DNA from: Verrucomicrobiota bacterium
Lineage (GTDB): Bacteria > Verrucomicrobiota > Verrucomicrobiia > Limisphaerales > UBA9464
Direction: 5' to 3'
NCBI GenBank assembly: GCA_947454705.1
Contig: CANGKZ010000024.1
Coordinates: 1-64,000, forward strand
DNA length: 64,000 bases
The translations under genes were made by a program, and so were the position numbers. Positions 5,201 to 22,376 of the stretch are shown here, in pieces. Numbering within the stretch: the first letter of the stretch is position 1; each line of letters starts with the position of its first letter. Under the pieces are notes generated by a model. It saw only the letters and a list, made by a program, of their open reading frames with translations. It did no database searches and was not told where the DNA came from.

Positions 5201-7836
5201 GTGTCGTGGGACAAATAAATTTGACCGTTAAAGTCGATCGCAGCCATGTCCACGCCGCTGGCTGAACACGCGACGTTGAGCCAGCTGCGAGTCCCCGCCG
5301 ACGACTGTAGAGTCCACGTCGCGCCTCCATTGATCGAGGTGTAGAGGGCTCCGACCGAAGCGGCTGCGACCTGGGTCTGACCCGATGCAGACATTGCCGC
5401 AGCGTGCCAGTTCGCCACGGAGAGCTGAGGTGTCCAACTCACTCCCGAATTCGACGACACGTAGACCTGTCCGCCCGCTGCCACCGCGGTGATACTTTGA
5501 CCATTGTCCGACATCGCGACCGCGTTCCAGCTTCGGGGCGATTCGGTGGGAGTCCAAGTGGCCCCGGAATCATGCGAGATGTAAAGAACGCCGGAATTCG
5601 CGGCGGCGATGATATCCTGTCCCGTGGCCGAGCAGGCGACCGCCCACCAATTGTTAACGCCACTCGTGGGCTGCGGCACCCACGTGATTCCATGATCGAT
5701 GGAAGTATAGATGAGTCCTGAATACGCTGCAGCCACCTGCAGATTGCCCGATCGGGATGATGTGGTGGCAGTCCAAATGCGATTGGTGTCACGCGGACTC
5801 CAGTGGTCTCCGGGACGACAGACAACGACCGGGGTGGTGCATTCCGACGTGTAGAGCCGTCCTTCGTAATCCGCCGCCAGCAGCGTGCGGCCATTCCCAG
5901 ACATGGCGAGCCCGTCCCAATTTCGGTTCGAGTCCTCGGGAGTCCAATTCGCACCGGAATCGTGCGACATGTAGATCATGCCGTTGTACGCCGCGACAAC
6001 GATCTGAGTGCCGTCCGCCGACATCGCGAGGGCGTGCCAGGAGTTGTTGGGAAGCACGGCCACCCACGACACGCCCGAGTTCTGGGAAAGATAGACATGC
6101 CCGCCAAAATCAATCGCGGCCATCCGCGTGCCGTTGGCCGAACAGGCGACGGTGTACCAATTTCGATTTCCAGCATTGGGCTGGAGCGTCCAGTTCGCCC
6201 CGCTGTCGGTGGAGGTGTAGATGCCGCCGCCGTAGATTGCGGCGACCTGGGTGACTCCGGAGGACGACATGGCGATCCCGCGCCAGTCGGCCTGGAACAG
6301 ATGAGCCGTCCAAGTAGCCCCCGAGTTCGCCGAGGTGAAGACCTGTCCATTCGACGCCACCGCCGAGAGGTTCACCCCATTCGCCGAGGAGGCGACCGCG
6401 AACCAGGTTCGGGGCGATTCGACCGTGCTCCACGTCACGCCGAAATCATGCGAGACATGAAGTTGTCCGAAGTTCTCCGCGGCCAGGAGGTGCTGCCCGG
6501 TTGCCGAGGTAGCGACCGCCCACCAGGGATGAACCCCACTACCCGGCTGAGGGACCCAGGTGGCACCGTGATCGGTGGAGGTGTAGATCAAATCCGAATG
6601 CGCCACGGCGACAAGGAATCCGCCATCTTCCGAAGAAGCCGTGGCCGTCCATTTCCGATTCGATTCATGGGGTGTCCAGGTATCGCCCGGACGGCAGACA
6701 TCGGTGGGAGTGGCCGGGAGGCTGTCGGAAATTCGAATGGTGTGATTGCGCGCATCGGCGATCACGAGTTTACCCGCGGGCGTCAGCGCGATTCCCGAGG
6801 GACCAAAGAACGCGGCCGCATTGCCCACGCCATCGGCCGTTCCGGAAGTCTGCGCGAGCCCGGCCAGCGTGGTGACCGATCCGGTCGGGGAAATCTTTCG
6901 CAACGCGTGATTTCCCTGATCGCAGACAAACACGTTGCCCGCGAGATCCACCGCCAAACCGCAGGGGCCGCCGAAGGGACTGATGAACTGCAGCGCGCTG
7001 AAGCGTGAGGTGCCGAGGGGGCCGTCAGTGAATCCGAAGAGGTTCACCGCACCAGCAATGGTACTGACGCCGCCGCTGGCTTCGATCCGACGAACGGTGA
7101 GATTTCCCGCATCCGAGACAAACACGTTCCCCGCCGCATCCACCGCGATTCCGCGCGGAGTGTTGAATCGAGCCGTCGTGTTCGGTCCATCGAGACTGCC
7201 GAATTGCCCCGGGACTCCTGCGTAGGTGGACACCACGCCCGACGGAAGCGCGATTCGCCGGATGCTCTGGTTGTTCTGATCGGTCACGTACAGCACCGAG
7301 CCGTCGACAGTTAACGCCAGACCAAAGGGGTTCCGAAATTGGGCCGACAGGCCGGCTCCATCCGCGATTCCCGACACTCCAGCGGTTCCGGCGAGGGTGG
7401 TCACATTTCCGCCGGATATTTTCCGGATCACGTGGTTGTTGTAGTCGGCCACGTACACCGTTCCCGCCGCGTCGATTGCCACACCGGTCGGACGATTGAA
7501 CTGCGCCGTCGCCACCGGACCATCGAGGTATCCATTAACGCCCACAACGCCGGCCAGGGTGGACACAACCGCATTCGCATCGATCGTGCGGATCGTATGA
7601 TTCAGTGTGTCCGCCACCACCAACCGTCCGTCCGCGCCCGCAGCGATGCCCCAGGGTTGGTTCAGTCGTGCAGCTGCGCCCGTGCCGTCGAGAGAGCCGC
7701 TGTTGCCTCCGGATCCGGCCAACGTGCCCACCTGGACGGGCTCATAAATTGATTGAGCGACCACGCCGCCGAGGTGCATCAACGCGGTCAGCACGAGCAG
7801 CGACAGCGTCTTCTGGAGGATTCGAAAGGAATTCAT
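2215..7836 (-). CDS. Giant secreted protein: NHL and BNR-type propellers, HYR, Ig, LamG
   Basis: This 1873-residue protein carries an N-terminal signal peptide (about residues 1-28, ending 'GGVVAQS') and is predicted to be exported. Domain order: about residues 35-375 are NHL repeats ('GIAVDAAGNVFVSDAGN' type). Residues about 379-672 and 674-955 are two homologous cassettes that each begin 'CRPGD.W' and contain seven 'IYTS.DSGATW'-type blades, like BNR/sialidase repeats. Residues about 960-1290 hold HYR-type domains with paired cysteines ('VSDGCGKTNVC'). Then come a beta-sandwich resembling galactose-binding domains, an Ig-like domain ('YQWYFNGNALTNGG') and a LamG/concanavalin-like domain. 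The tail 'DPVRYFRLVES' resembles the closing strand of many verrucomicrobial exported proteins. The architecture suggests surface adhesion or polymer binding; no catalytic residues are recognised. It is monocistronic. Confidence 0.85.
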   Translation of the reverse strand: MNSFRILQKTLSLLVLTALMHLGGVVAQSIYEPVQVGTLAGSGGNSGSLDGTGAAARLNQPWGIAAGADGRLVVADTLNHTIRTIDANAVVSTLAGVVGVNGYLDGPVATAQFNRPTGVAIDAAGTVYVADYNNHVIRKISGGNVTTLAGTAGVSGIADGAGLSAQFRNPFGLALTVDGSVLYVTDQNNQSIRRIALPSGVVSTYAGVPGQFGSLDGPNTTARFNTPRGIAVDAAGNVFVSDAGNLTVRRIEASGGVSTIAGAVNLFGFTDGPLGTSRFSALQFISPFGGPCGLAVDLAGNVFVCDQGNHALRKISPTGSVTTLAGLAQTSGTADGVGNAAAFFGPSGIALTPAGKLVIADARNHTIRISDSLPATPTDVCRPGDTWTPHESNRKWTATASSEDGGFLVAVAHSDLIYTSTDHGATWVPQPGSGVHPWWAVATSATGQHLLAAENFGQLHVSHDFGVTWSTVESPRTWFAVASSANGVNLSAVASNGQVFTSANSGATWTAHLFQADWRGIAMSSSGVTQVAAIYGGGIYTSTDSGANWTLQPNAGNRNWYTVACSANGTRMAAIDFGGHVYLSQNSGVSWVAVLPNNSWHALAMSADGTQIVVAAYNGMIYMSHDSGANWTPEDSNRNWDGLAMSGNGRTLLAADYEGRLYTSECTTPVVVCRPGDHWSPRDTNRIWTATTSSRSGNLQVAAAYSGLIYTSIDHGITWVPQPTSGVNNWWAVACSATGQDIIAAANSGVLYISHDSGATWTPTESPRSWNAVAMSDNGQSITAVAAGGQVYVSSNSGVSWTPQLSVANWHAAAMSASGQTQVAAASVGALYTSINGGATWTLQSSAGTRSWLNVACSASGVDMAAIDFNGQIYLSHDTGATWSAVQSNNTWHALAMSSDGTQILAAAYNEYLYISHDSGVTWTSVPMQHNWHGVAMSGDGSVLVAADYQGQLYTADCPSALTVTCPTNQTVECGTVWSFTPPTATSTCGTNISIAVSGTVTNGVCPRVITRTWTVSDGCGKTNVCSQSVTLQDTQPPTLSGSTNKLVSCGTSWKFDAPKVTDVCSGTNVVLRITGVVTNLACPVRYTQTWEAVDLCGNVATFSQTVEIVDNDAPMIDCSHLQFTVPLGTNCTLRIPEIHPPATDSCTPADALVYAQDPPAGAVVDGPCRVVTVSVRDRCGNVSRCQVTVCGQDRTPPRLVCPREVKADECLVPDALALVRATDNCTPVRDLVLTQVPAAGSAIAPGVTSVTVTATDAAGNQTVCTIPIHTGGSHSFLDRLFNTGVDASHAVVPAGSVDAHYTLGPVPLTTPTTAGYYHAPDARVATSPWGLPPFTVSRWIRPGLTVQGYPLGEFVYSNRFVLPPGVDLATVAISGRWAADDRAKMFLNGQNHSDLVAAINAPAPAGYTSWTPFSIHSGFLQFPATNTLYFVVSSEETIVGITGLRVEFTEAIANCNGCAPPVVTVQPVSTTRPRFGLATMSVSVSGTQPMTYQWYFNGNALTNGGSVFGADTATLLIAPLQYSNAGNYSVVVSNACGRTRSKAANLKVTHGFPWIWNWWNAEGPLDPLSPVHGTGVIISGPPLVGISRGTCEEFDLPLLGGRSVPVTHVAMLPLDSMIRLPRRSTSTNSNYSLVMDLFAPPSTNGPTVLFQLPHGSKLEGGGLKLWLAMDGRLRVAGTAAKGMMVDFSSSMPLIDGAWNRIALVMSGASDAESQDHLRLYLNGQSVGEMAGTFDVPMDAADSNAETGTLFNTPDGNGAELYVAGVQFHETALTPEMLAALGNPESGELMSMDSSMPMPMPNLVASASNGKFIASWSEGTVKLQETTDPVAGPWMDSDRPFTQSEDALGIRTAVELDPQPNDPVRYFRLVESR

Positions 7837-8070: not shown

Positions 8071-8150
8071 ATGCAGGACGGACTTCTCCTTTAGCCTCCG
8101 CGTCACCGCGCCACTGCGGAAGCGATTCGCTTTTCCCTTCAACCCTTCAT

Positions 8151-8340
8151 CCTAGAAACGGCAGTTGAAACCACAGATGGACACAGATTCACACAGATAG
8201 AGAGGGAGATGGGTGGTTCGACCGGGCTCGAACGGTTTCACCTTCTGGGTGATCTATGAATCCTTCCGCTCCGCTCAGTTCCATCTGTGTTCATCCGTGT
8301 CCATCTGTGGTTGAACTCTTCTTCAACTGCCGTTTCTAGG
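8151..8340. mobile_element. 190-bp MITE-like palindromic element (family A), copy 1
   Basis: The element is bounded by a perfect 19-bp terminal inverted repeat, CCTAGAAACGGCAGTTGAA at 8151-8169 and its reverse complement at 8322-8340. A second nested inverted pair (CCACAGATGGACACAGAT and ATCCGTGTCCATCTGTGG) has one mismatch. There is no internal reading frame. A second copy of exactly the same length lies at 41781-41970. The immediate flanks show no clear target-site duplication. The mobile-element label is inferred from structure and copy number. Confidence 0.75.
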
Positions 8341-8372
8341 TTCATCATTTCAACCCTTCAACTTCCGCCCCG

Positions 8373-11300
8373 TCACGGAAGCGGATGGGCCTCATCCAAC
8401 GTAGGAAGCGATTCCACAAACGCGCGTCCCCAACCACCAACCACCAGACGGGTGCCATCCGGAGAGAATCGCACAAACGAATACATGCCCTGGGAAACCA
8501 CGGTGGCGGCCTCGCGCCGTGCCGGCCAGCTCCAGAGCTTCACCTCGCCCACCACGGAACACGAAGCCAGCGTGCGGCCGTCCGGGGAGAACGCGACATC
8601 GACCAGGGCGTGTTGATGCCCGTGCAGAACGCCGGTTTCGTGAAGTGTGGCCGCATCAAGAAGCCGGATGGAATGATCCTCGCAGGCCACCGCAATCGTG
8701 CCGCCATCCGGGGAGAATGCGACGGCCCGTAAATCATTTCCGGGAAGGCTGCAGGAAACTCCCACGCCGGGATGATCCAGATCCCACAAACGAAGCCCAT
8801 CCGGTGGAAACATCGCCAACAAACGATGGGAATCCGGCGCATAGGCAATGGGTTCGCCGGGATTCGTTGCACCGGAAGTCGTCCAATCCCCCAGCCGGCG
8901 GCCGGTGAACGGATCAAACCGCGTGACTCCCGTCTGCCATCGAAGGTGCACCGCGAGCTCCGTCGCGGCCGGATTCATCGCCACGCCCAGCACTTCGTTG
9001 GTGTTGTTCAACTCCAGCTCAAGCCGACGGGGCGATGTTCCATGACGCGATAAATCCCAAATCAACAGCGGAAGCTTTCCGTTCTCGGACCGACTCCCGC
9101 GCGCGAGCAACGATCGACCGTCGGAGGAAAACCCCTGCGGCAACCACCCTCCCGACGGTTGTTCAAGGGGGACCGATTGGAGCGTCGCGAGATTCAAGAG
9201 CTGCACTTCGAACGCCTTGCCCGGGATGCTTTCACGACGCGCCGCAAGCCATGAGCCGTCGGACGAAATCACATACGGCGGCCACAGACTGGTGATCGCC
9301 GTTCCGGTCCCTTCGCCCTTCACGGGCCAGATTCGGACTGACCGATCGCGTCCGCCGCTCACCAGCCATCGTCCCTCCGGCGAATACGCCACTGTCCGCA
9401 CGGCATCGAGGTGCCCGATGCATCGCCGATCCATCCGACCGGTTCGCAGATTCCACACCGGCACTGATTGATCCGGACTCGCCTTCGCCAGAAACGCGCC
9501 ATCGGCCGAAAATGCCAGCGTTTCCCCAAAGGCGGCCTTTCCGGCAAGCCACGTCGGTGATTCACCAGCGGAGCGCGAGGCCAAAAGAACGCCTTGTTCG
9601 CCGGCCGCCGCGGCAAACCGCATTCCATCCGGGGAAACGGTCAACGACCCATTCAATTCCGGGACCGTCTTCACCACCTCGGCGCGACGGATGTCCCACC
9701 ACTCGGTGCCGATCTCGCGTCGCCGCGTGACCAGCGCCACGGACCCATCGGGCGTGAACGCTTCGAAATCCGCGATCGGCCCCACTTGCAGCACGTCCGT
9801 TCCACGCCGCCATTCCACCACGCGTGCGCGCGACGGCGACGTCCCGCCGCTCAGTTCTCCATCGGTCACACCGATCCATGCGCCGTCCGAAGAAAGAGCG
9901 ACACCCTTCGGATTCCGACCCGAATGGCTCCACACCACAGCTCCGGACTTTGCGTCCAAAATCTTCGTCCGCCCCAACGCATCGGACACCGACATCCACG
10001 CTCCATCGCGTGACAAACTCACCTTCTCGATGGCCACATCGGAGGGCTCCCAAGCCGCAACCTTTCTTCGCGATGCGAACTCCCAGAGCGAAACGCGCCC
10101 CGAGGATTCCCCCACGGCGAGCCAGCGTGAGTCGGCGGAAAAACTCACCACTTCAACGCTGTTCGAAAACATCGACAGGAGTTCATGCGGATCTCCGAGG
10201 CACCGTTTCCAAAGAAGTCTCCATTCCACTCCGCGCAAATCCCCTGCGCCGGATTCCCCAACTCCGCCGGAAACCTTCGGCTTGGGCCGGTAGGACTCCA
10301 CGATCCGCCGGGCGACGTTGAGATTTCCATCCTCGATCGCGTGCTGGGCCAGCAAGAGATCCGCGGCATAGAGCTGTTGCCGCGTCTCCGTTTTGATCCG
10401 GTCCGCCTGGGCCGCCGCGTGACGCGCTTTCATCCCTTCGGCCAGAGCGCCATTGCGTTCGCGTCGCACTTCACGATTTGCCACCAGGAGCACAACGAGA
10501 ATGGACACCAGGGCCAGCGCCCCGAGCCCCGACACCGCGGCCGCCACTGGATGACGACGTCCCCATTTCCCGATCCGTTCTCGTCGCGTGCTCGGGCGCG
10601 CGAGGATGGGCTCATGACGCAACCACCGCTCCAATTCCTCCGCGAGCGCTTCTGCGGAAGCGTACCGGTGCTCCGGTTCCTTGCGCAGGCACTTGTGGCA
10701 GATCGTCTCCAGATCGCGGTCACCCAACGAAATCACAGGCTCGTCGTTCGCCACCCGTTGAAGCACCTCGAGCAACCCTGATCCAACGAACACCGGATGG
10801 CCGGCCAATATCTCAAACAGGATCGCGCCCAGGCTGTAAACATCGACCGCGGTCGAGAGCGCCACACCGCCCTTCACCTGCTCCGGCGCGAGATACGCGG
10901 GCGTCCCCACCACGGCACCGCTGAGGGTCAACCGCTGATCCGTCTCCAACGCGAGGGCCAGACCGAAGTCCGATACGAGGGGCTCGCCCGATTCATCGAT
11001 GAGAATGTTCGAGGGCTTGATGTCCCGGTGCAGAATGCCGCGTTGATGCGCGTGATGCACCGCACGCGCCACCTTGGACACGAGGGCTGCGGCCCGGCGC
11101 GGATCCATCGGCGCTCCTTCCGCGATCGCCCGTTGAAGCGCATCCGCCAGGCTCCCGCCCGGCACATGCTTCATGGTGAAATACGGCCGGCCTTCCTCCT
11201 CACCGACTTCGTAGATGGGCACCACATTTCGATGCTCCAATCCGGCGACCGCCTCCGCCTCAAGCCGGAACCGCTGCATGGCCGCCTCGCCTGGCAGTCG

Positions 11301-11570
11301 GGTCTGCAAGACCATCTTGAGCGCCACCACGCGGTTCAAACTCCGCTGCCGTGCGCGATACACTACACCCATTCCGCCGCGGGCGATTTCCTCCAGGATC
11401 TCGTAGTCCGCGAGACCACTCCCGGGCGATTGAAGCGGGTCCGACTCCGGAAACTCGGCAGGCGTGGCGTGGATCAACGACTCCCACAGGCACCGGGCGC
11501 ACAATCCCTCCGTTGCTGCGGGCGACAGCGGGCTCTGGCACTGCGGACAACGTTGAAATTCGGACGGCAT
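8373..11570 (-). CDS. Ser/Thr protein kinase with WD40 propeller
   Basis: This 1065-residue kinase opens with a small zinc-ribbon ('CPQCQSPL...LCARCL', residues about 8-30). The Hanks-type kinase domain (about 50-320) has the glycine loop 'IARGGMGVVY', the VALK lysine, the catalytic 'HRDIKPSNIL' and 'DFG'. A single membrane helix follows near residue 345 ('LGALALVSILVVLLV'). The C-terminal 600 residues are WD40-like repeats ('VAFSPDGRTLASCS', 'VRIWPV'), predicted to lie on the far side of the membrane as a sensor or scaffold. It starts 113 bp after the sigma-factor gene ending at 11684, on the same strand. In Planctomycetes and Verrucomicrobia, ECF sigma factors are often encoded next to such kinases, so phosphorylation-linked transcription control is a reasonable inference. 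Confidence 0.92.
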   Translation of the reverse strand: MPSEFQRCPQCQSPLSPAATEGLCARCLWESLIHATPAEFPESDPLQSPGSGLADYEILEEIARGGMGVVYRARQRSLNRVVALKMVLQTRLPGEAAMQRFRLEAEAVAGLEHRNVVPIYEVGEEEGRPYFTMKHVPGGSLADALQRAIAEGAPMDPRRAAALVSKVARAVHHAHQRGILHRDIKPSNILIDESGEPLVSDFGLALALETDQRLTLSGAVVGTPAYLAPEQVKGGVALSTAVDVYSLGAILFEILAGHPVFVGSGLLEVLQRVANDEPVISLGDRDLETICHKCLRKEPEHRYASAEALAEELERWLRHEPILARPSTRRERIGKWGRRHPVAAAVSGLGALALVSILVVLLVANREVRRERNGALAEGMKARHAAAQADRIKTETRQQLYAADLLLAQHAIEDGNLNVARRIVESYRPKPKVSGGVGESGAGDLRGVEWRLLWKRCLGDPHELLSMFSNSVEVVSFSADSRWLAVGESSGRVSLWEFASRRKVAAWEPSDVAIEKVSLSRDGAWMSVSDALGRTKILDAKSGAVVWSHSGRNPKGVALSSDGAWIGVTDGELSGGTSPSRARVVEWRRGTDVLQVGPIADFEAFTPDGSVALVTRRREIGTEWWDIRRAEVVKTVPELNGSLTVSPDGMRFAAAAGEQGVLLASRSAGESPTWLAGKAAFGETLAFSADGAFLAKASPDQSVPVWNLRTGRMDRRCIGHLDAVRTVAYSPEGRWLVSGGRDRSVRIWPVKGEGTGTAITSLWPPYVISSDGSWLAARRESIPGKAFEVQLLNLATLQSVPLEQPSGGWLPQGFSSDGRSLLARGSRSENGKLPLLIWDLSRHGTSPRRLELELNNTNEVLGVAMNPAATELAVHLRWQTGVTRFDPFTGRRLGDWTTSGATNPGEPIAYAPDSHRLLAMFPPDGLRLWDLDHPGVGVSCSLPGNDLRAVAFSPDGGTIAVACEDHSIRLLDAATLHETGVLHGHQHALVDVAFSPDGRTLASCSVVGEVKLWSWPARREAATVVSQGMYSFVRFSPDGTRLVVGGWGRAFVESLPTLDEAHPLP

Positions 11571-11683
11571 TTACGGATCAAGCTCGAACCGTTCCTACAG
11601 GATCCGCACCGAATCGATGCAGGAAAACTTCCACCGCTGAATTGAATGCGAACTCGCCGCCAATAGGACCGGCCGATGCGAAT

Positions 11684-12442
11684 TCATGCGCGGTCGAACG
11701 CGGCAAAGAGTTCGCGGATCTCGCGATCAATGTCGGTCTGGGTGGGTTGAACCATCGTTTGCGCCACTTCCATCCGGATCAATTCCGCGAACCGCCGACG
11801 CAACCGGTGGATCAATCCCTTGGTGGCCGGCAGGCTCAGCTTCAACCGCGCGGCAGCGGCCGAAACGGAGTCCCCATCCCGCTCGGCGAGCAGGAACCCC
11901 TTCACCTGTTCGAAGCGCCGGCTCCCGTCGTCGCCATCGCACTCCCGCCGCAAACGGGCCAGGGATCGTACCAAAATAGATTCAGCCCATCGCCGGTCGA
12001 ACACCCGGTCCGGGCTCGATTCATCCGCGGGCTCGGCGAGGTAGCGCCCCTCGGCATCGGTTTCATCGAGCGAGAACACCGTCTGCCCGCCCCCGCGCTT
12101 CAAACACCGCGCACGCTCGCGCTCGTTGGCGAGGAGGTTCTTGATCGATGCGATGAGGAACGAACGGAACCGTCCTCTTTCCGGCGACACCGAGGCCAGT
12201 CCCTGATTGGCCAGCAGCCGCGAAAAGAATTCCTGGGTCAGGTCGGCCGCGGATTCCGGGTCGAGTCCGCTGCGTCGCACAAACGAATACAGCGGATACC
12301 AATAGTCCCGGCACAGCGCCTCCATGGCCGCGGCGGAACGCGGCGACCCCGGATCGCGCGCTTCGATCACAGCGCTCCAGTGCGTGCTCAGGAACTCACG
12401 CGGACCGCTCCGGGGCAGGAGAACGGATTCAGACAGGGCCAT
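11684..12442 (-). CDS. ECF-type RNA polymerase sigma factor (first of two)
   Basis: This 252-residue cytoplasmic sigma factor starts at the ATG of 'MALSES'. A longer open frame reaches back to 12700 but overlaps the neighbouring sigma gene and looks non-coding. The opening 'LSTHWSAVIEA' and 'DLTQEFFSRLL' correspond to region 2. The C-terminal 'SLPATKGLIHRLRRRFAELI' is the region-4 helix-turn-helix. This is the large ECF type (Sigma70_ECF) common in Planctomycetes and Verrucomicrobia beside Ser/Thr kinases. No anti-sigma gene is visible. It follows the second sigma gene by 77 bp and precedes the WD40 kinase by 113 bp, so kinase control is plausible but not shown. Confidence 0.9.
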   Translation of the reverse strand: MALSESVLLPRSGPREFLSTHWSAVIEARDPGSPRSAAAMEALCRDYWYPLYSFVRRSGLDPESAADLTQEFFSRLLANQGLASVSPERGRFRSFLIASIKNLLANERERARCLKRGGGQTVFSLDETDAEGRYLAEPADESSPDRVFDRRWAESILVRSLARLRRECDGDDGSRRFEQVKGFLLAERDGDSVSAAAARLKLSLPATKGLIHRLRRRFAELIRMEVAQTMVQPTQTDIDREIRELFAAFDRA

Positions 12443-12519
12443 GAGAGGGGTTGAAGGTGGAGAATCGGCTGAACCGGGAGCCACCCTGCCCCAAATTTGA
12501 TTCCCGGCGCAACGCCCCG

Positions 12520-13236
12520 CTACACCCTCGACCACACCTCGATCAGGTACCGCAACTCCTCCGATGCATCGGCCCCCTCCGGCAGCGTTTGCTGAATCTC
12601 GTTGCGCACCGCATCGCGGAACCGTCGGCGCAGGCGGTGAATGGCCACCTTCAACGCGCCTTCGGTCAGCCCCAGCTCCCGGGCCAGTTCCATCTGGCAC
12701 GGCAACTCCCCTCCGAGCAGCGCCGGTTTGAGCCGGTCAAACTGCGACGCTTTCCCCGCTTCGGAATAGTCAGCCCCCACCGCATCCACCGCGCGGCCGA
12801 GGAGCGTCAACGCCCATTCCCAATCGAACTGCGCATCGTCCAACGATTCGTCCGAGGCCGGATCCGCAGCCTCCGGTTCATTCAGCGATTCCAGCACCGC
12901 ACCGCCGCCGCGTTTGAGACGGCGCTCGCGCTCGCGCCGGTCCGATTCGAAATGGCGCAGCGCCCCCAGCAGATAACTCCGAAACTTCCCCCGTCGCGCA
13001 TCTGCCCCGGCGATTCTTCCCCCTTGGAGCAGGTGAGCGAAGAACTCCTGGGTCGCATCGCGGGCCGATTCCTCATCCCGTCCGCCCTGCCTCAACACGC
13101 GAAACACCGGCTGCCAGTAGGCCTCGCACAATTCCGAAAGCGCCACCCGCGCCTCCTCGGTCGTCCCCTGGGCGCGATGCACCAGCGACCAACGGGTCGG
13201 CGCAAACCAGGGTTGAGGCTCGGCGGAGGAACTCAT
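12520..13236 (-). CDS. ECF-type RNA polymerase sigma factor (second)
   Basis: This 238-residue sigma factor shares the plan of its neighbour: 'FAPTRWSLVHRA' at the N-terminus, 'DATQEFFAHLL' in region 2, and a region-4 helix-turn-helix 'LGLTEGALKVAIHRLRRRF'. Its ATG overlaps the TGA of the upstream kinase gene in an ATGA arrangement (13233-13236), so translational coupling to that kinase is very likely. The two sigma factors are clearly related but divergent, suggesting an old duplication of a kinase-sigma module or recruitment of two separate modules. Target promoters cannot be read from the sequence. Confidence 0.92.
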   Translation of the reverse strand: MSSSAEPQPWFAPTRWSLVHRAQGTTEEARVALSELCEAYWQPVFRVLRQGGRDEESARDATQEFFAHLLQGGRIAGADARRGKFRSYLLGALRHFESDRRERERRLKRGGGAVLESLNEPEAADPASDESLDDAQFDWEWALTLLGRAVDAVGADYSEAGKASQFDRLKPALLGGELPCQMELARELGLTEGALKVAIHRLRRRFRDAVRNEIQQTLPEGADASEELRYLIEVWSRV

Positions 13237-15416
13237 GGAAGTCGGGGCCAGGCCATGTCCACCTGGTTGGTGCGCGTGCCGCCCGGAAAGGTCTTGGACT
13301 TTCGGATCACGGTCATTTTCGGGTGATTCGCACCCGTGGGGCCGGAAATCAGTTGGAGCACCTCCGACTTCCGCATGCGGATTTCCTCCTCGTCCTGATC
13401 TGAGTTGCCATCCAGCAGCCGCGTGCAGAGCACGAGTTCATCCCGATCCTTCCAAAGCACGGACTCAAACGAGCGCAACCACTCGAGCGCTTCCGTGTGT
13501 CCGGATCTCGAAGCAAACACGATGAACGCGGCGAGCAATCCGCCATGGCCGTTCTGCAAATGCGTGTAGGTGTCGGCATCCGAAAAACCGCCGCTAAAGC
13601 CAGGAAGCGCAAAGATCAAATCGAGATCCGAGTTGCTCATGAGGAGGACACGCATTTGAAAGAGCAGTTCGCTCGCCTTGCGATAGTCCGAATTCGAGGC
13701 GGCACGAAACACAGCGCCCACATCAATCCCCGACTGCCGCACCTTTCCGGTCGGGAGAAGGATCAAGGTTCCACCGTTGCGGAGATGCGTTTCCGCCTCC
13801 TTCTTTTCTAGGAATGGGCCCATCAAGGCGCTTGTGAACCGATTAGCCAGGATCTGAGAATCCCGGGCCAATTGTTCACGGTAGCGGGTCTCGGTCATCG
13901 GCTGCACCGAACCGTCAGCGAGGTAAACGAATCTCCCCGACGGCCCAAGCGGAGAGGCAAGGAGGACGGTCCAAGGCCTCGGATTGGTCCACCCGGCGCC
14001 CACATACTCGATGCGTCCCCCGGTGACTGGATCCACCAGCCATTGATTCCAGATGGACCAATCTCCGAGCTCCGCCAGATTGGTGGAAGTGGGATAGATC
14101 GTTCCCTCAGGAGTGTTTTTTGCCGACGTTCGGAGCACCGCCCCGATCTTGCTCAGGTTGTTCACGAGTTCGATACGACGGCGCTTCTCCTGCAGTCGTT
14201 GAATCCCCCAACCGACCGCCGCCACCAGCAACACCAAATTAGCCACTCCGATCCCAGCGGCGAGGTACTGCCGCAGTTGCGGTCGCTGACGCCGGATCTC
14301 CCACACGCCGAACGCCATCGCCAGCATCCCGAGGATCAAAACGATCTCAGGCACTCCGGGAACTCCCGGGAAAAGAACCAGTGCCATGGCAATCAGCACC
14401 ACGGGAACCCAGTACCGCATCCGCTTGAACGGCCACATCCAATCCACTTTTGATCCGGCCAATCCCTCCACCTCCGTCTTCACCTGGTCGGCGGATTGCT
14501 GTCGCAGCTCCCGCTCGTTGGCCAGCGCGCGCAGGACGATTTCATCGACGCGGGCATCGAGCGTGGCTTTGGCCGAAGGCACTTGGAACCGCCCAAGCGG
14601 AAGCTCCCCGGTGAGCAATTCGTAAAACACCACGCCGAGCGAATAAATGTCGGCCCGGTGATCCACCTGCTCCGGTTTCTCGACCTGCTCCGGGGCCATG
14701 TAGTGCGGCGTTCCCAGGCGCGCGCCCGTGCGGGTGAGCGTGGCATCATCGAGCACGGATTCCGGACCTCCAACCATCTTGGCGATGCCGAAGTCCGCAA
14801 TCTTCACCCGTCCCTCGGCATCGAGGAGAATGTTCTCGGGCTTGATGTCGCGGTGCAGCACGCCCTGGGAGTGCGCGTATTGAAGCGCATCGCACAGCGG
14901 CGGAATCAACGCCAATGCCTGGGCCGGAGTGAAGCGACCGGAGCGCAGCGTCTGACGCAAATTCGCCCCATCCACGTGTTCCATCAGCAGGTGACAGAAC
15001 CCGCCCCGTTGCCCGAAGGCGTGGATGCCGACGATGTTGGGATGATGCAGTCGGGCCAAGGTTCGAGCCTCGCGTTCGAAGCGTTCCACGAAGGCGGGGT
15101 CCGATGCGAATTCGCGCGGAAGGATCTTCAACGCCGACACCCGGCCGGACTCCCGTTCCCGAACCCGGTACACGCAACCCATTCCCCCTGCCCCGAGAAA
15201 TCCGAGCACTTCAAGATCCGGAAACGCGGCCGCAATTTCGCTCAATGCCGGTGGCTTGGCGGGGCCGCGGCGGACATCAGACTCCGTGGCCGTGGACACC
15301 TCCTGCAGCAGGCAGCGTGGACACATCCCCGCCGGCGCGTGGGCCGGGACAGGAGCCCCGCAGCGCGGGCAGTTCGAAGCCGAAGGAGAGGTCGGTGCGG
15401 ATCCCTGAGAATTCAT
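13233..15416 (-). CDS. Membrane Ser/Thr protein kinase coupled to ECF sigma
   Basis: This 727-residue protein begins with a zinc-ribbon ('CPRCGAPVPAHAPAGMCPRC', residues about 18-38). A complete Hanks kinase follows (about 70-340) with 'LGAGGMGCVY', 'SALKIL', 'HRDIKPENILL', 'DFGIAKM' and the 'APE' element. Next come three predicted membrane helices (about 350-430), then a C-terminal region of about 290 residues, probably extracytoplasmic, with a 'YLADGSVQPMTE' strand resembling the tail of pseudopilin-like proteins. The 3' end overlaps the downstream sigma gene by 4 bp. The ATG start lies 74 bp after the hybrid histidine kinase stop, so all five signalling genes may share a transcript. Confidence 0.92.
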   Translation of the reverse strand: MNSQGSAPTSPSASNCPRCGAPVPAHAPAGMCPRCLLQEVSTATESDVRRGPAKPPALSEIAAAFPDLEVLGFLGAGGMGCVYRVRERESGRVSALKILPREFASDPAFVERFEREARTLARLHHPNIVGIHAFGQRGGFCHLLMEHVDGANLRQTLRSGRFTPAQALALIPPLCDALQYAHSQGVLHRDIKPENILLDAEGRVKIADFGIAKMVGGPESVLDDATLTRTGARLGTPHYMAPEQVEKPEQVDHRADIYSLGVVFYELLTGELPLGRFQVPSAKATLDARVDEIVLRALANERELRQQSADQVKTEVEGLAGSKVDWMWPFKRMRYWVPVVLIAMALVLFPGVPGVPEIVLILGMLAMAFGVWEIRRQRPQLRQYLAAGIGVANLVLLVAAVGWGIQRLQEKRRRIELVNNLSKIGAVLRTSAKNTPEGTIYPTSTNLAELGDWSIWNQWLVDPVTGGRIEYVGAGWTNPRPWTVLLASPLGPSGRFVYLADGSVQPMTETRYREQLARDSQILANRFTSALMGPFLEKKEAETHLRNGGTLILLPTGKVRQSGIDVGAVFRAASNSDYRKASELLFQMRVLLMSNSDLDLIFALPGFSGGFSDADTYTHLQNGHGGLLAAFIVFASRSGHTEALEWLRSFESVLWKDRDELVLCTRLLDGNSDQDEEEIRMRKSEVLQLISGPTGANHPKMTVIRKSKTFPGGTRTNQVDMAWPRLP

Positions 15417-15490
15417 ACATCCCAGACATGGGGTCTTTCCGATCCGAAGTTACCGACAAATCCCAACAGCCCTAGAATCAAATCCACGAC

Positions 15491-18400
15491 TCAGGTTTTC
15501 ATGCGAGCCCGGTCGAGACAATCGGCCACCGCCTTGAGCAAGTGGCCAGGATCGTAGGGTTTCGCGAGAAAGCCATCGACCGGGGCCGGAGAAACACCAG
15601 CCGCCATGCCAGACGGAAGATCCGAGCTGTATCCGCTCGTAAACAGAACCGGCAGATCGGCGCGCTCCCTCCGCAGTTGCAATGCCAGATCTCCTCCACT
15701 CAACCCTTCCGGCATGACCAGATCCGTGAACAACAGATCGATCATTCCCTGGGAGTTCGCCCACAGTTTCAACGCCGCCGGACCATTCGCAGCCGGCACG
15801 ACGTCATACCCGCCCCGTTCCAGGATCGACTGGGCCATCGCCCGCAACGCCGGTTCATCTTCCACCAACAGGATGATCCCCCGCCCCTCCAGGCATCGCA
15901 CCGGCCCCGCCGCGGTGCACGGGGGCGAATCCGTTTCCGCGCTGACCGGCAGGTACACCCGAAACTCACTACCTTTGCCGGGCACGCTGTCCACTTCGAT
16001 CCACCCCTCGTGCTGGCGGATGATTCCGTACACCGTCGCGAGACCGAGTCCGGTGCCCTTCCCCGGCTCCTTGGTGGTGAAGAAGGGATCAAAAATACGC
16101 GGCAGGTGCTCCACGGAAATGCCCCCGCCCTGATCCGTGACCGAGAGCCGGACGAAACGCCCCGGCCGTGCCAGCGGATGAACCTGCGCGTGCCCGTCGC
16201 TCACCTCGGTGGAATCGACCCGGATCTGCAAGCGGCCTCCCGACGGCATTGCGTCGCGTGCGTTCACGGTGAGATTCAACAACACCTGCTCGATCATGCT
16301 CGCGTCAGCGCGGGCACGGGGGAGATTCGGCTCCACCTGCACGTCGATGGGAATCTGCTTTCCCACCAGCGGCTGCAGGAGACCGGTCATCGCAAGGGAG
16401 ACTTCTCCCACGTCGAGGTTCACCGGTTCCATGGCCTTGCGACGCCCCACCAGAAGCAACTGCCGGATCATCTTGGCCGCGCGCTCCACGGCTTCCTGGA
16501 TCTGACGTGCAAATTTCCGGGTCTCGGCTTCCGCCGTGGTTTCCGAAAGCAGCGAGGCGGCGCAATGAATGATGGCGAGGATGTTGTTGAAATCATGGGC
16601 CACTCCGCCGGCGAGCTGCCCGATCGCCTCCATTTTCTGTGACTGCCGGAGCTCCGCTTCGAGTTTCTCCCGTTCCATCTCCGCGCGCCGTCGTTCGGTG
16701 ATGTCGAGGGAGAAGCCCACGATTCCTACGATGTTCCCGTTCTCATCGCGGTACGGAAGCTTGTCGGTCAGCATCCACCTCGGGCCGTTCGCAGTCTGGA
16801 GCTCCTCGACGATTCCCCGCTTGGGAATGCCCGTGGACATGACTTCGTCCTCGTCCCGGAAATACCCATCGGCCTGCTCACGCTTCAGCTCACGGTCGGT
16901 GAATCCCTCGATCTGTTCCCGAGGGAGCCCCGTGACCCGCACCGCCTCGGCGTTGACGCGAAGCAGCCGGTGCTCCCGATCCTTGAAAAAGATCAGCGCC
17001 GGGACGGAATCCAGAATGAGCTGCAACTCCTTGCGGTGGCGCTCGAGTTCGAGCTCGGCGATCCGCTGATGCGAGACATCCAAAAGAATGCCGTGCCAGA
17101 GCACGCCTCCCTCGGGATCCCGCTCCACCACCGCGCGTCCCTCCATCCAGGATTCAGCCCCCGACACCACCGAGGCCCGAAATCCGAGCCGCCAGGACTT
17201 CAGAGACGCGGCGGATTCCCGCAGGGATTCCACCACCCGCGTCCGGTCCTCCGGATGGATGCGTTCCAAGATCGGCCGGGCATCCGCCTCCAACGCCTCT
17301 CTCGAAATGCCAATCAGCGCATCCGCTTTTGGACTGATGTAGGAAAGGGAGAAGATTCCGTCTGGTCGCAATTGGAGCGTGAACACGATTCCGGGAAGAT
17401 TTCCCGCGAGCTTGCTCATCCGCGTTTCGGCCTCCAGCAGCATCTGCAGCGCCTCCTCGGCCATCTTTCGCTCCGTAATGTCGCGTACCACCACGTGGGT
17501 CAGCAACCCACTGCTGCGCTCCAATGGACTCAACCGCACCTCGGTGTGAAGCCATCCACCGTCCGGCCGCAGAAAGGTCCACTCAATGCACGGGGATTTG
17601 CCGATGACCGCATTGTCGAGCAGCCGGTTCAACTGCTCTTCCGAGGCAGTGCCACCGGCCTGAAAGCTGGGGGAAAACTCGAGTATCGAATGTCCGACCA
17701 ACTCCCGGCTCGACCGCTCCAGCAGCGCGAGGGTGCTGGGATTGCAGTCATCCACGGTGGAGCCGCGCAACACGAGGATTGCGTCATGCGCGGATTCAAA
17801 CAGGGCCTTGTAATCCAGTTGATGTTCCCGCGCCCGCCGCTCCGCAAACAGCAGCCGATCTCGCTCCTGCAACAAAAGGCTCTGCCGGGCAAGGGCGGTG
17901 CCCGCAACGATCATCGATCCCGCCACCGCCACATACTTCACCGAAGTGACTGTACCAGGAATGGTCAATGCAAGGATGAGTCCCACAGCGGTGATGATCA
18001 GCACCACCATCGGAAGCAGGCGGAGGATTCCCTCGCACCGGCGATCCCATTGAGGATTGGTCGACCGTGCGGCCCGCCAGCGCATCGCTCCGTAGCCGTT
18101 GAGCAGCGCGGTCAGGGAAAAGCACGCATTGTAGAACGATCCGTCCTTCAACACTGCATCCAGCGCCAGCACGTTCCATTGAATGTACAAGGTACCGCTC
18201 CAGAGCAGCGACACCAGGAGCGCGATCCATCCTGCATTCGCGCGGAACCGCAAGGTCGGGATCATCATGACCGCCACCGATGCGGCGGTCATGATGCACG
18301 CCGGATAGGCAACCATGACCAGAAACGGGAAAAGCGCCGTGCTTCCCCGACGAGGGAGGTAGAACGCCAGCGTCAGCATCAACACCACCACCGACAGCGA

Positions 18401-18844
18401 AACGGCATCTAGCGCAAACGTCTTAAGCTGGGATCGCGGGACGCTCACACGCAGGGCGGCAATCAACCCCACGAGAGTGCACAAACCCAGCAGCAGATAG
18501 AAAAAGTCGGTCGGCGAAGGAAACTGCCGTGCGTCCGCGAGGATCTGGGCATCCGAAATCAATTGCCCCACCGCTGAGGCCACCAAACCTGCGGTAAACC
18601 ATGCCCTGGGCGTCCGGCAGTCCGGTGTTGCCGATCGCACGCCCATCCACCCCATCAAGGCCGCAACGACGTACGAGGCAGTCCAATGAAGGTTGTCGAA
18701 AAAAACGAGCCATTCCTTGGTGGAGGCGAACAAGTCCCCCACGAACCCGGCCACCGTCAAAGCCCCCGAAATCCACAACCCCAGGACAATCCATCGACGC
18801 GCCGGCCCGGCGGCCATGGCATCGGTGGACACAGGGGAATTCAT
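15491..18844 (-). CDS. Hybrid sensor histidine kinase, PAS x3, receiver
   Basis: This is a 1117-residue hybrid sensor. About nine or ten membrane helices occupy residues 15-330. They are followed by three PAS domains ('YKALFESAHDAILVLRG', 'LPGIVFTLQLRPDGIF', 'LQLILDSVPALIFFKD'). The histidine kinase core has the phospho-acceptor box 'GQLAGGVAHDFNNILA' and ATPase motifs 'NLTVNARDAM', 'DQGGGI' and 'GKGTGLGLATVYGI'. The C-terminal receiver has 'ILLVEDE' and the phospho-acceptor Asp in 'LLFTDLVMPEG'. The ATG at 18844 was chosen; an in-frame TTG lies three codons upstream. It is first in a same-strand run with the kinase and sigma genes. The signal is unknown, and no separate output regulator is encoded nearby. 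Confidence 0.92.
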   Translation of the reverse strand: MNSPVSTDAMAAGPARRWIVLGLWISGALTVAGFVGDLFASTKEWLVFFDNLHWTASYVVAALMGWMGVRSATPDCRTPRAWFTAGLVASAVGQLISDAQILADARQFPSPTDFFYLLLGLCTLVGLIAALRVSVPRSQLKTFALDAVSLSVVVLMLTLAFYLPRRGSTALFPFLVMVAYPACIMTAASVAVMMIPTLRFRANAGWIALLVSLLWSGTLYIQWNVLALDAVLKDGSFYNACFSLTALLNGYGAMRWRAARSTNPQWDRRCEGILRLLPMVVLIITAVGLILALTIPGTVTSVKYVAVAGSMIVAGTALARQSLLLQERDRLLFAERRAREHQLDYKALFESAHDAILVLRGSTVDDCNPSTLALLERSSRELVGHSILEFSPSFQAGGTASEEQLNRLLDNAVIGKSPCIEWTFLRPDGGWLHTEVRLSPLERSSGLLTHVVVRDITERKMAEEALQMLLEAETRMSKLAGNLPGIVFTLQLRPDGIFSLSYISPKADALIGISREALEADARPILERIHPEDRTRVVESLRESAASLKSWRLGFRASVVSGAESWMEGRAVVERDPEGGVLWHGILLDVSHQRIAELELERHRKELQLILDSVPALIFFKDREHRLLRVNAEAVRVTGLPREQIEGFTDRELKREQADGYFRDEDEVMSTGIPKRGIVEELQTANGPRWMLTDKLPYRDENGNIVGIVGFSLDITERRRAEMEREKLEAELRQSQKMEAIGQLAGGVAHDFNNILAIIHCAASLLSETTAEAETRKFARQIQEAVERAAKMIRQLLLVGRRKAMEPVNLDVGEVSLAMTGLLQPLVGKQIPIDVQVEPNLPRARADASMIEQVLLNLTVNARDAMPSGGRLQIRVDSTEVSDGHAQVHPLARPGRFVRLSVTDQGGGISVEHLPRIFDPFFTTKEPGKGTGLGLATVYGIIRQHEGWIEVDSVPGKGSEFRVYLPVSAETDSPPCTAAGPVRCLEGRGIILLVEDEPALRAMAQSILERGGYDVVPAANGPAALKLWANSQGMIDLLFTDLVMPEGLSGGDLALQLRRERADLPVLFTSGYSSDLPSGMAAGVSPAPVDGFLAKPYDPGHLLKAVADCLDRARMKT

Positions 18845-19071: not shown

Positions 19072-20184
19072 GTGACCCGCATCGCCTTCTGCATCGCCAG
19101 CGCGCTGGTGTTGACTGCCCTGAGCCCCGCGGCCCTCGGGGAAATTCTCCTGCGCGATGGGGCGTACCACGCGTTCCCTGGTGACTCGTTGCAAGAGGCG
19201 GTGAACCGCGCGGCCGACGATCCCAAGCACAAACGGGTCATCGTCCATGAGGGAACCTACGCGCCAGCGCGTCCCGCCCAGGCGCTGGTGTACCTCCATC
19301 GACACCACGAGGGTGTCCAGTTGATCGGACTCGGCCGCCCCACCCTCACCGCGGCCAGCGCCACGATTGCCGACCCGGCAAAACGTTCGTCACCAGCGGT
19401 GGTGAACCACCTCCTCTACCTCGGCGACGGTCTTTCCACCAACACCCTCGTGCAGGGATTCCGCCTCACGGGGGCGAACCATTTTGTCACCACGGCCGAC
19501 ACTTTTCTCATCGAGCCGGATCAAACCGTGCGCAAGGGACGCTTCTACTATGGCGATGGCGGAGCGATCAAGGTGTACCACCGATCCTACCCGGTCCTGC
19601 GGGATCTGGAGATCTTCGACAACTTCGCCAGTCCCTGCGCCGGCGGGATTTCGATTCAACACGAAGGAGCCACAAACGGCGTGGTCCACATCGAGAACTG
19701 CATCTTCCGCAACAACCGGGCGGAAGTCACCGGGGCCGCCTTGGATCTCCTGTGGGGCAGCTCCGCGCGCGTGGTGAACTGCCTGTTCGAGGGAAACGTC
19801 TCCAACACCGGACCGGGCGAGGGGGAAAACCCGTTTAACAACAACGGTGCCATCACCGTGTTCCCACGATCACGCCTGATCCTCGAACGCTGCACGCTCA
19901 CCGGGAACCGAAATGGAGTGGATGATCAGAGCGGGCTCGGCCAATACCTCCGCTGCATGTTCCGCGGCAACACGCGCGATGGGGGATTCACGCCGCAAAC
20001 GCGCTACGAGCTGGATCTTCCCAAGGGAGGGCTCGTGCAAGACTGTGTCATTCAAGGCCCGATCCGCGATCCGCTCTCCGTCGTGGATCGCTCCCGGAAT
20101 CGCCTCACGGAATCCACCGAGCCGCACCTCGAAGACGCCGGAGTCGGGTTTCAACCAACACCAAAGGCGGTCACCCAACCCTGA
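19072..20184 (+). CDS. Secreted right-handed beta-helix protein
   Basis: This 370-residue exported protein has a GTG start and a signal peptide ending near residue 23 ('LSPAALGE'). The body reads as a parallel beta-helix: 'GDSLQEAVNRAADDPKHKRV', 'VIVHEGTY', then turns such as 'GVVHIENCIFRNNRAEVTG', 'VVNCLFEGNVSNTG' and 'LILERCTLTGNRNGVDDQSG'. This fold is typical of polysaccharide lyases, but no catalytic set can be assigned, so enzyme or structural role is open. It is transcribed divergently from the hybrid histidine kinase across 227 bp in which I see no further gene. It fits the polymer-degrading character of its neighbours (sulfatase, FG-GAP protein). Confidence 0.8.
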   Translation: MTRIAFCIASALVLTALSPAALGEILLRDGAYHAFPGDSLQEAVNRAADDPKHKRVIVHEGTYAPARPAQALVYLHRHHEGVQLIGLGRPTLTAASATIADPAKRSSPAVVNHLLYLGDGLSTNTLVQGFRLTGANHFVTTADTFLIEPDQTVRKGRFYYGDGGAIKVYHRSYPVLRDLEIFDNFASPCAGGISIQHEGATNGVVHIENCIFRNNRAEVTGAALDLLWGSSARVVNCLFEGNVSNTGPGEGENPFNNNGAITVFPRSRLILERCTLTGNRNGVDDQSGLGQYLRCMFRGNTRDGGFTPQTRYELDLPKGGLVQDCVIQGPIRDPLSVVDRSRNRLTESTEPHLEDAGVGFQPTPKAVTQP

Positions 20185-20375: not shown

Positions 20376-22376
20376 TCACTCCGGCTCGGTGAGCTTAATC
20401 AGACGATTGGAACCCAAGTCCTGCGTCACCACCTGGTGCCGGCCGGAGGGCCAGTCCACTTCCACCTTTTCCACCGTCGAGGACGCACCAAGTCCGAAAT
20501 AGAGCGGCAACACACTCTGTCCGAGGTGGCCGGATTTCCCGTCGTGATACTGCGTCCAGACCCGGCCGCCAGAAGTCACGCGAACCAACGCTCCGAGCCC
20601 GTCCCGATTCGATTTCCGTCCGATCAGCTGCACCTGGATAAAATGCACCGCGTGCGACGCCGACAGATCGCTGATCAACACCTGCGGCGCATCACCCATT
20701 TCATTGGTCACGATGTCGAGATCCCCATCGCCATCCACATCCAACACCACTGCGGATCGACTGCTGGCCACCGCCGTGAACGGCACCTTTCCCGTGCGCC
20801 CGCGCGCGAGCGGATGCGCGCGATCCGCTCCATCGCAATCGAGCACAAAGGCCACATGCGTCCGCTTGGCCGCGACCCGTGGCTCCACGCCAAGCACGAA
20901 CTCGGAGTCGGCGAATCGTTTTCCCCCGTCGTTCAACAACAGAGAATTGATGCCGTAGCGAAACCCGAAGCCCATGCCCGCCGGTATGAACACGTCCTCG
21001 AATCCATCGGCATTCAAATCTCCCACACTGACACCCCAGGGCCAAAAGGTCTCCGCCCCGATGGAATCGGACACCTCCGCAAACGTCCCATCGCCCTGAT
21101 TTTGATAAAACGAATTACCGAAGATGTTGTTCGCCGCTCCCTGCAAATAGGCATCGGAGTATTCCGTGGTGCACCACTTCTCGCTCTTCATCTTCTCGAA
21201 GCTCTCACGGAAATCCACCTTGCTGAGCTTGGTCTGCAATCCGGTCATGTCGGAGTGCATGTCGGTCACATACAGGTCCGGCCTGCCATCCTGATTGTAA
21301 TCAAAAAACTTCACCCCCATGCCACCCCAGGAAGTCTTCGGAAACACCGAGACTGTCTTCTCCACAAAGCGTTTCCCGCCCTGGTTCTCCAGGTAGTGAT
21401 TGTCCCCCTGCATGTTCAGCAGATACAGGTCGGGAAAGCCGTCGTGATTCAAATCCGCAAAGGTCGCATCGCCACTCCACGACACGAGCTTCAACCCCAT
21501 CTCCGCAGTCACATCCTTGAACCGCAGGTTTCCCTTGTTTTTGTAGAGGATCGAGTGCTCGGTTCGATCCGGAAACAGGTGTCCGGTGAAACCATTGGTC
21601 ATGCCCACAAAGTATCCGCCGGGACCTTTAACTTCCGTGGTGAACCGCCCGACATTGCAAATCAGGATGTCGAGCAACCCGTCGTTGTCGAAATCCACCA
21701 GCACGATCCCGCTGGAATGTCCGGAGAAGGCCACGCCGGCGGCCTCCGTAATGTCTTCAAACTTCCCGCCCCCTTTGTTGCGGAACAAATGGTTTCCATG
21801 ACGAACGGTGGTCACGAACAGCTCGGGCAGACCATCGTTGTCGAGATCGGCAAATGAGGCTCCCACCGAAACCTGGTCGGGCAGCCCCACCCCGGCGAGC
21901 GACGTGATGTCCTCAAACTTCCCTGCCCCGAGGTTTCGATACAGCCGGTTGGTCCCGAGTTGGGTGGCGAAATAGAGGTCGGGTCGTCCGTCCCTATCGA
22001 CATCCGCCGCGGCGACGGCGCTCCCATGGTCGTAATGATTCCCGCGAAAATGTTTCCCGGCGTCCTCCACGATCTCATGTCGGAACGAAATCCCGGTGTC
22101 GCCCAACCGGTCGGCGAATTTGAAATCGTGGATCGCCCCCAGCTTGGTCGCCGAGGCCCGCTGCAGTGCCGCGCGCTCCTGAAGCGCCACATCCATGGCC
22201 GCCGGGTCGATGAGCGATTTCGCTACCGCCGGCGAAGTTTGGGCCAGTGCTCCTGCCGCACCTGGCCCGGCCCACAAGGCAACCGCCCCAACGACACTCC
22301 ACGCCATCGCCCTCCCGAATCGCCGCGTGATGTTGAGATGCGGAACACCGGTCGATAAATCGAAACTCGAACTCAT
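20376..22376 (-). CDS. Secreted ASPIC/UnbV FG-GAP (VCBS) repeat protein
   Basis: This protein of about 666 residues carries an N-terminal export signal ('VVGAVALWAGPGAAGALAQ'). Repeated FG-GAP/VCBS units with calcium-binding loops follow: 'ADVDRDGRPDLYFATQLG', 'ADLDNDGLPELFVTTV', 'VDFDNDGLLDILICNVG', 'FDYNQDGRPDLYVTDM' and 'GDLNADGFEDVFIPAGMG'. The C-terminus has an ASPIC/UnbV domain ('VEKVEVDWPSGRHQVVT'). Such CRTAC1-like proteins are abundant in Planctomycetes and Verrucomicrobia; the predicted fold is a secreted beta-propeller and the molecular role is not established. I chose the ATG at 22376; a TTG nine codons upstream is possible. It is monocistronic. Confidence 0.9.
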   Translation of the reverse strand: MSSSFDLSTGVPHLNITRRFGRAMAWSVVGAVALWAGPGAAGALAQTSPAVAKSLIDPAAMDVALQERAALQRASATKLGAIHDFKFADRLGDTGISFRHEIVEDAGKHFRGNHYDHGSAVAAADVDRDGRPDLYFATQLGTNRLYRNLGAGKFEDITSLAGVGLPDQVSVGASFADLDNDGLPELFVTTVRHGNHLFRNKGGGKFEDITEAAGVAFSGHSSGIVLVDFDNDGLLDILICNVGRFTTEVKGPGGYFVGMTNGFTGHLFPDRTEHSILYKNKGNLRFKDVTAEMGLKLVSWSGDATFADLNHDGFPDLYLLNMQGDNHYLENQGGKRFVEKTVSVFPKTSWGGMGVKFFDYNQDGRPDLYVTDMHSDMTGLQTKLSKVDFRESFEKMKSEKWCTTEYSDAYLQGAANNIFGNSFYQNQGDGTFAEVSDSIGAETFWPWGVSVGDLNADGFEDVFIPAGMGFGFRYGINSLLLNDGGKRFADSEFVLGVEPRVAAKRTHVAFVLDCDGADRAHPLARGRTGKVPFTAVASSRSAVVLDVDGDGDLDIVTNEMGDAPQVLISDLSASHAVHFIQVQLIGRKSNRDGLGALVRVTSGGRVWTQYHDGKSGHLGQSVLPLYFGLGASSTVEKVEVDWPSGRHQVVTQDLGSNRLIKLTEPE

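Follow-up and report, generated by a model that had tools for sequence, protein, structure and literature searches.

The locus described here lies in a 64,000-nucleotide stretch of DNA, which we call the window (contig CANGKZ010000024.1, positions 1 to 64,000, assembly GCA_947454705.1), from the genome of a Verrucomicrobiota bacterium (G000; 5.45 Mb in 80 contigs, 95.7% complete). Five open reading frames (ORFs) run in the same direction on the minus strand from 18844 to 8373. They encode a hybrid histidine kinase (HK), a Ser/Thr kinase (STK1), two extracytoplasmic function (ECF) sigma factors (ECF1 and ECF2) and a second Ser/Thr kinase with WD40 repeats (STK2). A preliminary description of this DNA had listed the same five genes and domains, and the spacers that it gave (74, −4, 77 and 113 bp) were all re-read from the sequence. 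HK (15491–18844; ATG start, with an alternative TTG start at 18853) has a hydrophobic N-terminus and Pfam matches to PAS at three places, HisKA, HATPase_c and a C-terminal receiver, the composition of a hybrid histidine kinase. STK1 (13233–15416) carries a CxxC-x12-CxxC motif, a Hanks kinase domain, two hydrophobic segments and a C-terminal part that belongs to no Pfam family, and its gene overlaps that of ECF1 (12520–13236) by ATGA. ECF2 (11684–12442) follows across a 77 bp junction (12443–12519). STK2 (8373–11570) has the same CxxC-x12-CxxC motif, a Hanks kinase domain, one strong hydrophobic segment (residues 345–363) and C-terminal WD40 repeats.

The two kinases matched PF00069 at 171.5 and 166.5 bits, with WD40 additionally matched in STK2, and both contain the ALK, HRD, DFG and APE motifs of Hanks-type Ser/Thr kinases. 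No credible Pfam match was found for the C-terminal part of STK1 or the N-terminus of HK, even at E values up to 1. The N-terminal zinc ribbon that had been assigned to both kinases was present as a cysteine motif and gave no Pfam match; this motif is a trait of the whole family of paired kinases, since 70 of the 76 paired kinases with ORFs of at least 350 residues contained CxxC-x8-16-CxxC, 67 of them with x12. For the sigma factors, ECF2 scored 29.8 bits against Sigma70_r2 (PF04542), over the 24-bit cut-off, and ECF1 scored 19.5, under it; both remained under the 42.9-bit cut-off of TIGR02937 (ECF1 37.4, ECF2 30.0). ECF1 is a divergent sigma factor that aligned with ECF2 at E 1.7e-36 and 37% identity. 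The lengths of ECF1 and ECF2 (238 and 252 residues) fit sigma factors with regions 2 and 4 only, and region 4 gave no Pfam match in either. As had been claimed, there is no anti-sigma gene: the space between the genes is too small for a further ORF, and none of the five proteins has an anti-sigma domain. The five-gene locus holds neither a separate anti-sigma factor nor a partner switch, and both sigma genes have the neighbourhood of a kinase-regulated ECF sigma factor, with a Ser/Thr kinase gene alongside. Low-power scans of the three positive spacers found no minus-strand terminator-like sites and no sigma-70 promoter-like sites (0, compared with 1.6 in shuffles).

The coordinates of the preliminary description end too early. 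The next gene on the same strand (2215–7836) is linked to ECF2-STK2 in relatives and encodes a giant protein of 1873 residues with a hydrophobic N-terminus, NHL and BNR repeats, HYR_4C/HYR and Ig domains. We refer to HK-STK1-ECF1 as module A and to ECF2-STK2 with the giant gene as module B. Beyond module B lies a conserved family gene on the plus strand (geneA, 679–2028). Beside HK are a beta-helix protein gene (19072–20184, plus strand) and an FG-GAP/ASPIC protein gene (20376–22403, minus strand), both conserved in two relatives, G004 and G010.

Pairing of an ECF sigma factor with a Ser/Thr kinase is routine in this organism. Thirteen sigma-family matches were found in G000, of which 12 are intact ORFs, each with a kinase ORF alongside on the same strand; the thirteenth has an internal stop and is likewise adjoined by a kinase. 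Across the loci collected for this census, 82 of 100 distinct sigma ORFs had a kinase neighbour, and some of the 18 unpaired ones lie at contig ends. Each sigma was assigned to class I or class II by whether ECF1 or ECF2, respectively, scored higher against it; the loci were fetched with these two proteins as queries, and the sample favours both classes for that reason. Gene order followed class closely. The kinase came first in 32 pairs, 29 of which join a class I sigma to an STK1-type kinase, and the sigma came first in 50, 44 of which join a class II sigma to an STK2-type kinase. Counted by class, 29/31 paired class I sigmas are kinase-first and 48/51 paired class II sigmas are sigma-first (Fisher p about 2e-16, uncorrected for relatedness). 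The two sigma-first exceptions in class I (L003 and L004) are both far out in the tree. The three kinase-first exceptions in class II are L005 and L052, which both have an STK1-type kinase, and L008, which sits on a long branch; four further class II sigmas have an STK1-type kinase downstream. Among the best 80 of 489 loci from a species-level scan (one genome per species in GTDB 220, two peptide patterns), the named taxa were mostly metagenome-assembled genomes of Verrucomicrobiota, joined by members of Planctomycetota and Acidobacteriota and by a single Archangium. A few entries bear the name Akkermansia muciniphila, perhaps wrongly.

A tree of 98 of the 100 sigmas, built by a quick method (two were too short), agreed with this division. 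Thirty-six class I rows formed a clade with support of 99, and all 29 of its paired members are kinase-first. The class II side comprised 58 rows with support of only 84 and includes a small kinase-first group (L005, from G000, and L052). ECF1 fell inside the class I clade, and ECF2 in an eight-member class II subclade with support of 99. The preliminary description had read the locus as a symmetrical double module, a reading that found no support here. The sigmas are of different classes with opposite gene order. Because ECF1 and ECF2 belong to different classes, the mirror-image look does not amount to duplication; as judged from the tree, the locus is one member of each sigma class side by side. 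Adjacent ECF-STK modules were also seen at L211, at L213 and on contig C68 of G000. With 13 sigma genes placed at random in G000, 0.14 pairs within 5 kb would be expected; two were seen, one of them on C68. The C68 locus (L002, 185–7707) is a tandem ECF-STK-ECF-STK arrangement with closely related sigmas, and is probably a duplicated class II module.

Gene order was compared in relatives. The preliminary description had staked its single operon on the conservation of the five-gene order; that order was absent in relatives. HK beside STK1-ECF1 did recur, across a contig break, in another species of the same genus (G004, 86% complete). One G004 contig (C275) carries the ASPIC gene, the beta-helix gene, HK, a pseudopilin-like gene, a small ORF and the start of STK1; another (C553) carries the remainder of STK1, ECF1 and then geneA, only 45 bp from the ECF1 stop. 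The two STK1 fragments are complementary, with about 35 residues missing between them, and they appear to be one gene broken by an assembly gap, as suggested also by the single strong match to the STK1 C-terminus in G004. In the window the gap between ECF1 and geneA holds ECF2, STK2 and the giant gene; G004 has no ECF2-STK2 there, and the best ECF2 match anywhere in its genome reached 47% identity. An alignment of the junctions with G004 gave no trustworthy target-site duplication at the boundaries of the putative insertion. G010 has the same HK flanks as the window (L112; L111 in G004), its contig ends inside HK, and its geneA is also cut by a contig end. In G004 the pseudopilin-like gene (N_methyl) and the small lipoprotein-like ORF (L111, 7995–9148) separate HK from STK1; the window lacks both.

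Other comparisons gave the same picture of separate inheritance. In G025 (about 70 contigs) the counterparts are scattered, with ECF1 at 58% on C47, ECF2 at 72% on C57 and, on C53, a homolog of HK with 39% identity over the N-terminal part. Within the extent of the stretches around geneA in five genomes (G005–G009), no other query protein from the window turned up. Upstream genes are in view for six ECF2 relatives, and ECF1-STK1 is not among them in any of the six; for the seventh (G096) the stretch ends 200 bp upstream. Homologs of the HK N-terminus in other genomes (L113, L114, L115 and L116) adjoin other histidine kinases.

Module B was followed through its ECF2 relatives. A search of 320 genomes across the taxonomic order, with at most eight candidates scored in most of them, found these at 61–64% in five genomes of two other families, and the best 80 of the 489 species-level loci contained the same seven full ECF2 relatives plus a fragment of 90 residues at 61% (L223). 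In G025, elsewhere in the genome, ECF2 is followed by STK2 (77% in the kinase domain) and, 13 bp on, by a giant gene whose product of 1320 residues is 51% identical to the 1873-residue window protein over 873 residues of its C-terminal region. Downstream of ECF2-STK2 lie a DUF5122-HYR protein in G178, an RCC1-HYR-lectin protein in G096 and, in G173, a protein of 2046 residues with no Pfam family; the contigs of G177 and G179 end too early to judge. Hence a giant protein follows in all three evaluable relatives from the two other families, with HYR in two. Two ORFs make up the STK2 relative of G179 (L144, 1844–5179), with the split falling inside the kinase domain, which reflects either a broken gene or an assembly error.

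In the loci counted, HYR after the kinase was confined to the ECF2 subfamily. The count took in pairs with the sigma first and no less than 2.5 kb of sequence beyond the kinase, 51 of them in 49 loci. Its HYR profile derives from the window together with three loci that were positive, all of which match by construction; Pfam HYR_4C served as a check. HYR occurred within 4 kb after the kinase in 3/5 ECF2-subfamily loci versus 0/46 other cases (Fisher p=0.0005); one of the misses among the five, L155, ends inside a split STK2. Over the 45 genomes behind these loci, every HYR_4C match in G025 (2), G178 (2) and G096 (7) lies on the ECF2-STK2 contig. There were none in G173 or G179, and nine other genomes gave matches (37 in one), none placeable in the counted loci. 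For six genomes with HYR_4C matches, placement was judged by open-frame lengths; L190 has two short frames of matching length (166 and 173 residues), but the matches lie outside its stretch. In the family to which the window belongs, 11/50 genomes have any HYR_4C match, and the two in G000 both fall within 2215–7836. The hydrophobic N-terminus of the giant protein resembles a signal peptide, and the protein is therefore probably secreted.

Kinase control of neighbouring ECF sigmas is established for group ECF43 (PMC8999054, PMC13147305), and kinases in place of anti-sigma factors in ECF-STK pairs are an accepted idea (PMC8999054). In Vibrio parahaemolyticus EcfP/PknT and Xanthomonas citri EcfK/PknS, as in the window, the sigma gene adjoins a Hanks kinase gene with no anti-sigma factor. 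A Thr in region 2.2 of ECF43 sigmas supplies a missing negative charge, and in EcfK linker residues are phosphorylated too (PMC8999054, PMC13147305). Unlike ECF43, every aligned sigma in our set has an acidic residue in region 2.2, and the window has two adjacent pairs, HK and the giant gene. The ECF-STK synteny also resembles that of ECF59, ECF61, ECF62 and ECF217, with Planctomycetes examples, a likeness by published description; outside ECF43, the kinase-linked groups are described as retaining a DAED-like motif (PMC8999054). In membrane Pkinase-WD40 proteins of Planctomycetota, as in STK2, a kinase is joined to WD40 repeats, the kinase being predicted to be cytoplasmic and the WD40 part outside; unlike STK2, no sigma-gene pairing appears in the passages describing them (PMC11032199). 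ECF57 sigmas carry WD40-like C-terminal repeats themselves (PMC8999054), whereas in the window the WD40 repeats are on the kinase. Neither a double ECF-STK module nor a sigma-kinase-HYR cassette was among the matches listed in open-access literature, as judged from titles and abstract openings.

The last acidic residue of region 2.2 is kept in 98/98 aligned sigmas (38/38 class I, 60/60 class II), preceded by Arg in 36/38 of class I. The window motifs are SARD in ECF1 and SAAD in ECF2, in which the first Asp is lost, the last is kept and there is no Thr, unlike the ECF43 pattern. Ser at the first acidic position is rare (2/38 class I, 2/60 class II), as is Thr (5 and 2). The Ser of ECF1 is common to G004; in the relatives of ECF2, seven in all, this position holds Asp, Glu or Ala. 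Elsewhere, a Thr in the TxW[ST] motif that precedes region 2 and a Thr in a C-terminal QT are present in 98/98 sigmas, and a linker column of class II has Ser/Thr in 55/60, followed by Pro in 49.

Four other explanations were weighed. The preliminary description had proposed one integrated five-gene operon, in which HK and both Ser/Thr kinases act jointly on two paired sigmas. The co-directional genes, short spacers and lack of terminator-like sites suit this view; however, the order is absent in G004, the G025 counterparts lie on three contigs, other genes lie upstream in 6/6 ECF2 relatives in view, and the HK homologs of G025, G032 and G030 stand beside other histidine kinases, and we consider it unlikely. 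That both pairs arose by duplication of one module is far harder to credit: the sigmas are related, and C68 shows that a tandem pair of close sigmas does occur in this genome, but the sigma tree disfavours such an origin, with ECF1 and ECF2 in different clades, opposite gene orders and different kinase types.

The remaining two explanations concern how the kinases act. In an EcfP/PknT-type switch the sigma is inactive until its kinase phosphorylates a Ser or Thr at the DAED position of region 2.2, restoring the negative charge. The Thr mechanism has been demonstrated for EcfP (PMC8999054), Ser is named for ECF59 in a review (PMC8103513), and the Ser at the first acidic position of both window sigmas, conserved for ECF1 in G004, would fit; the Ser of ECF1 keeps this putative mechanism alive. 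The motif counts nevertheless disfavour it. As the last acidic residue is invariant, replacement of a lost charge by phosphothreonine does not carry over directly to these sigmas, and Ser is rare at the first position and absent from it in the ECF2 relatives. A negative charge is retained at one position in 15.8% of ECF43 sigmas (PMC13147305), which makes the motif test strong and not absolute; charge restoration is accordingly improbable here. Slightly less probable still are kinases that serve as anti-sigma factors, holding the sigma by binding and not by phosphorylation. The lack of an anti-sigma gene and the prevalence of kinase neighbours agree with it, but both kinases keep ALK, HRD, DFG and APE, which would be needless for binding alone. 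From the pattern of conserved residues we tentatively favour phosphorylation outside the DAED position, with the linker as the first place to look.

We propose that the locus probably comprises two independently inherited kinase-gated sigma switches that have become adjacent in this lineage, module A (HK-STK1-ECF1) and module B (ECF2, WD40-bearing STK2 and the giant propeller/HYR protein). Each membrane kinase would sense an envelope signal through its C-terminal part, which in STK2 would be the WD40 propeller, probably outside the membrane. The kinase would then phosphorylate the sigma encoded next to it and alter its activity at RNA polymerase. For ECF2 the first candidate site is the conserved Ser/Thr in the linker between regions 2 and 4 (SPD in the window), and ECF2 would then drive its own operon and the giant gene, among others. 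Any input from HK to module A would be a secondary, lineage-specific one; none of the five genes encodes an obvious output partner for the HK receiver. More tentatively, module B could be a recurring three-gene cassette, in which a kinase-gated class II sigma and a WD40 kinase serve solely to produce one giant secreted protein. The HYR domains of this protein would persist, and its propeller head would be exchanged from lineage to lineage (NHL/BNR, BNR, DUF5122, RCC1). The WD40 kinase may sense the same ligand as the giant protein, or the giant protein itself.

Several points weigh against this proposal. HK-STK1-ECF1 was found in two species only, and the G004 case, which includes two additional genes, spans a contig break. 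The comparison does not distinguish insertion of module B in G000 from its loss in G004. The loci in the HYR count are related to one another, which makes p=0.0005 too small, and only four genes, all positive, went into the small HYR profile. The giant gene lies 536 bp from STK2 in the window and ~1.7 kb away, with intervening ORFs, in G096. Giants without HYR are found after certain other ECF-STK pairs as well (at L165, L175, L176 and L178 the next ORF on the same strand has at least 1000 residues), and size alone is thus not specific. A search for a promoter motif shared by the ECF2 relatives and giant genes found no 4+4 dyad in at least 5 of 9 sequences; to the eye, the upstream sequences from G177, G178 and G179 resemble one another. 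The regulatory steps of the proposed switches are inferred from sequence.

Two further features lie around module B. A palindromic repeat of ~180 bp (8150–8330) occupies part of the gap between STK2 and the giant gene and occurs at no fewer than 40 places in the genome, at least 39 further ones at 82–97%; the DNA fold of 8130–8345 has a z-score of −9.5. The best copies elsewhere are 80% in G010 and 73% in G004, and each of five other genus members has one or no short match. The repeat looks like a recently expanded non-autonomous element. In the gap left of module B (2029–2214), short repeat-like text was seen by eye around GCGTTCATCCGCGTTCATC, possibly a remnant of rearrangement.

On this reading, the apparent complex operon resolves into two simple units that are separately testable, and its boundary is corrected. 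The two ECF-STK pairs without anti-sigma factors are borne out; such pairing is itself known, and the locus exemplifies an established kind of arrangement, with module B as a sharper, more testable unit. Kinase-linked ECF sigmas are plentiful in these bacteria, with 12 intact pairs in G000, and the region 2.2 census shows that a simple extension of the published phospho-switch to them is not warranted. To our knowledge, few kinase-linked ECF sigmas have a known target. As a conserved neighbour, the giant propeller/HYR protein is a concrete candidate target for one sigma subfamily.

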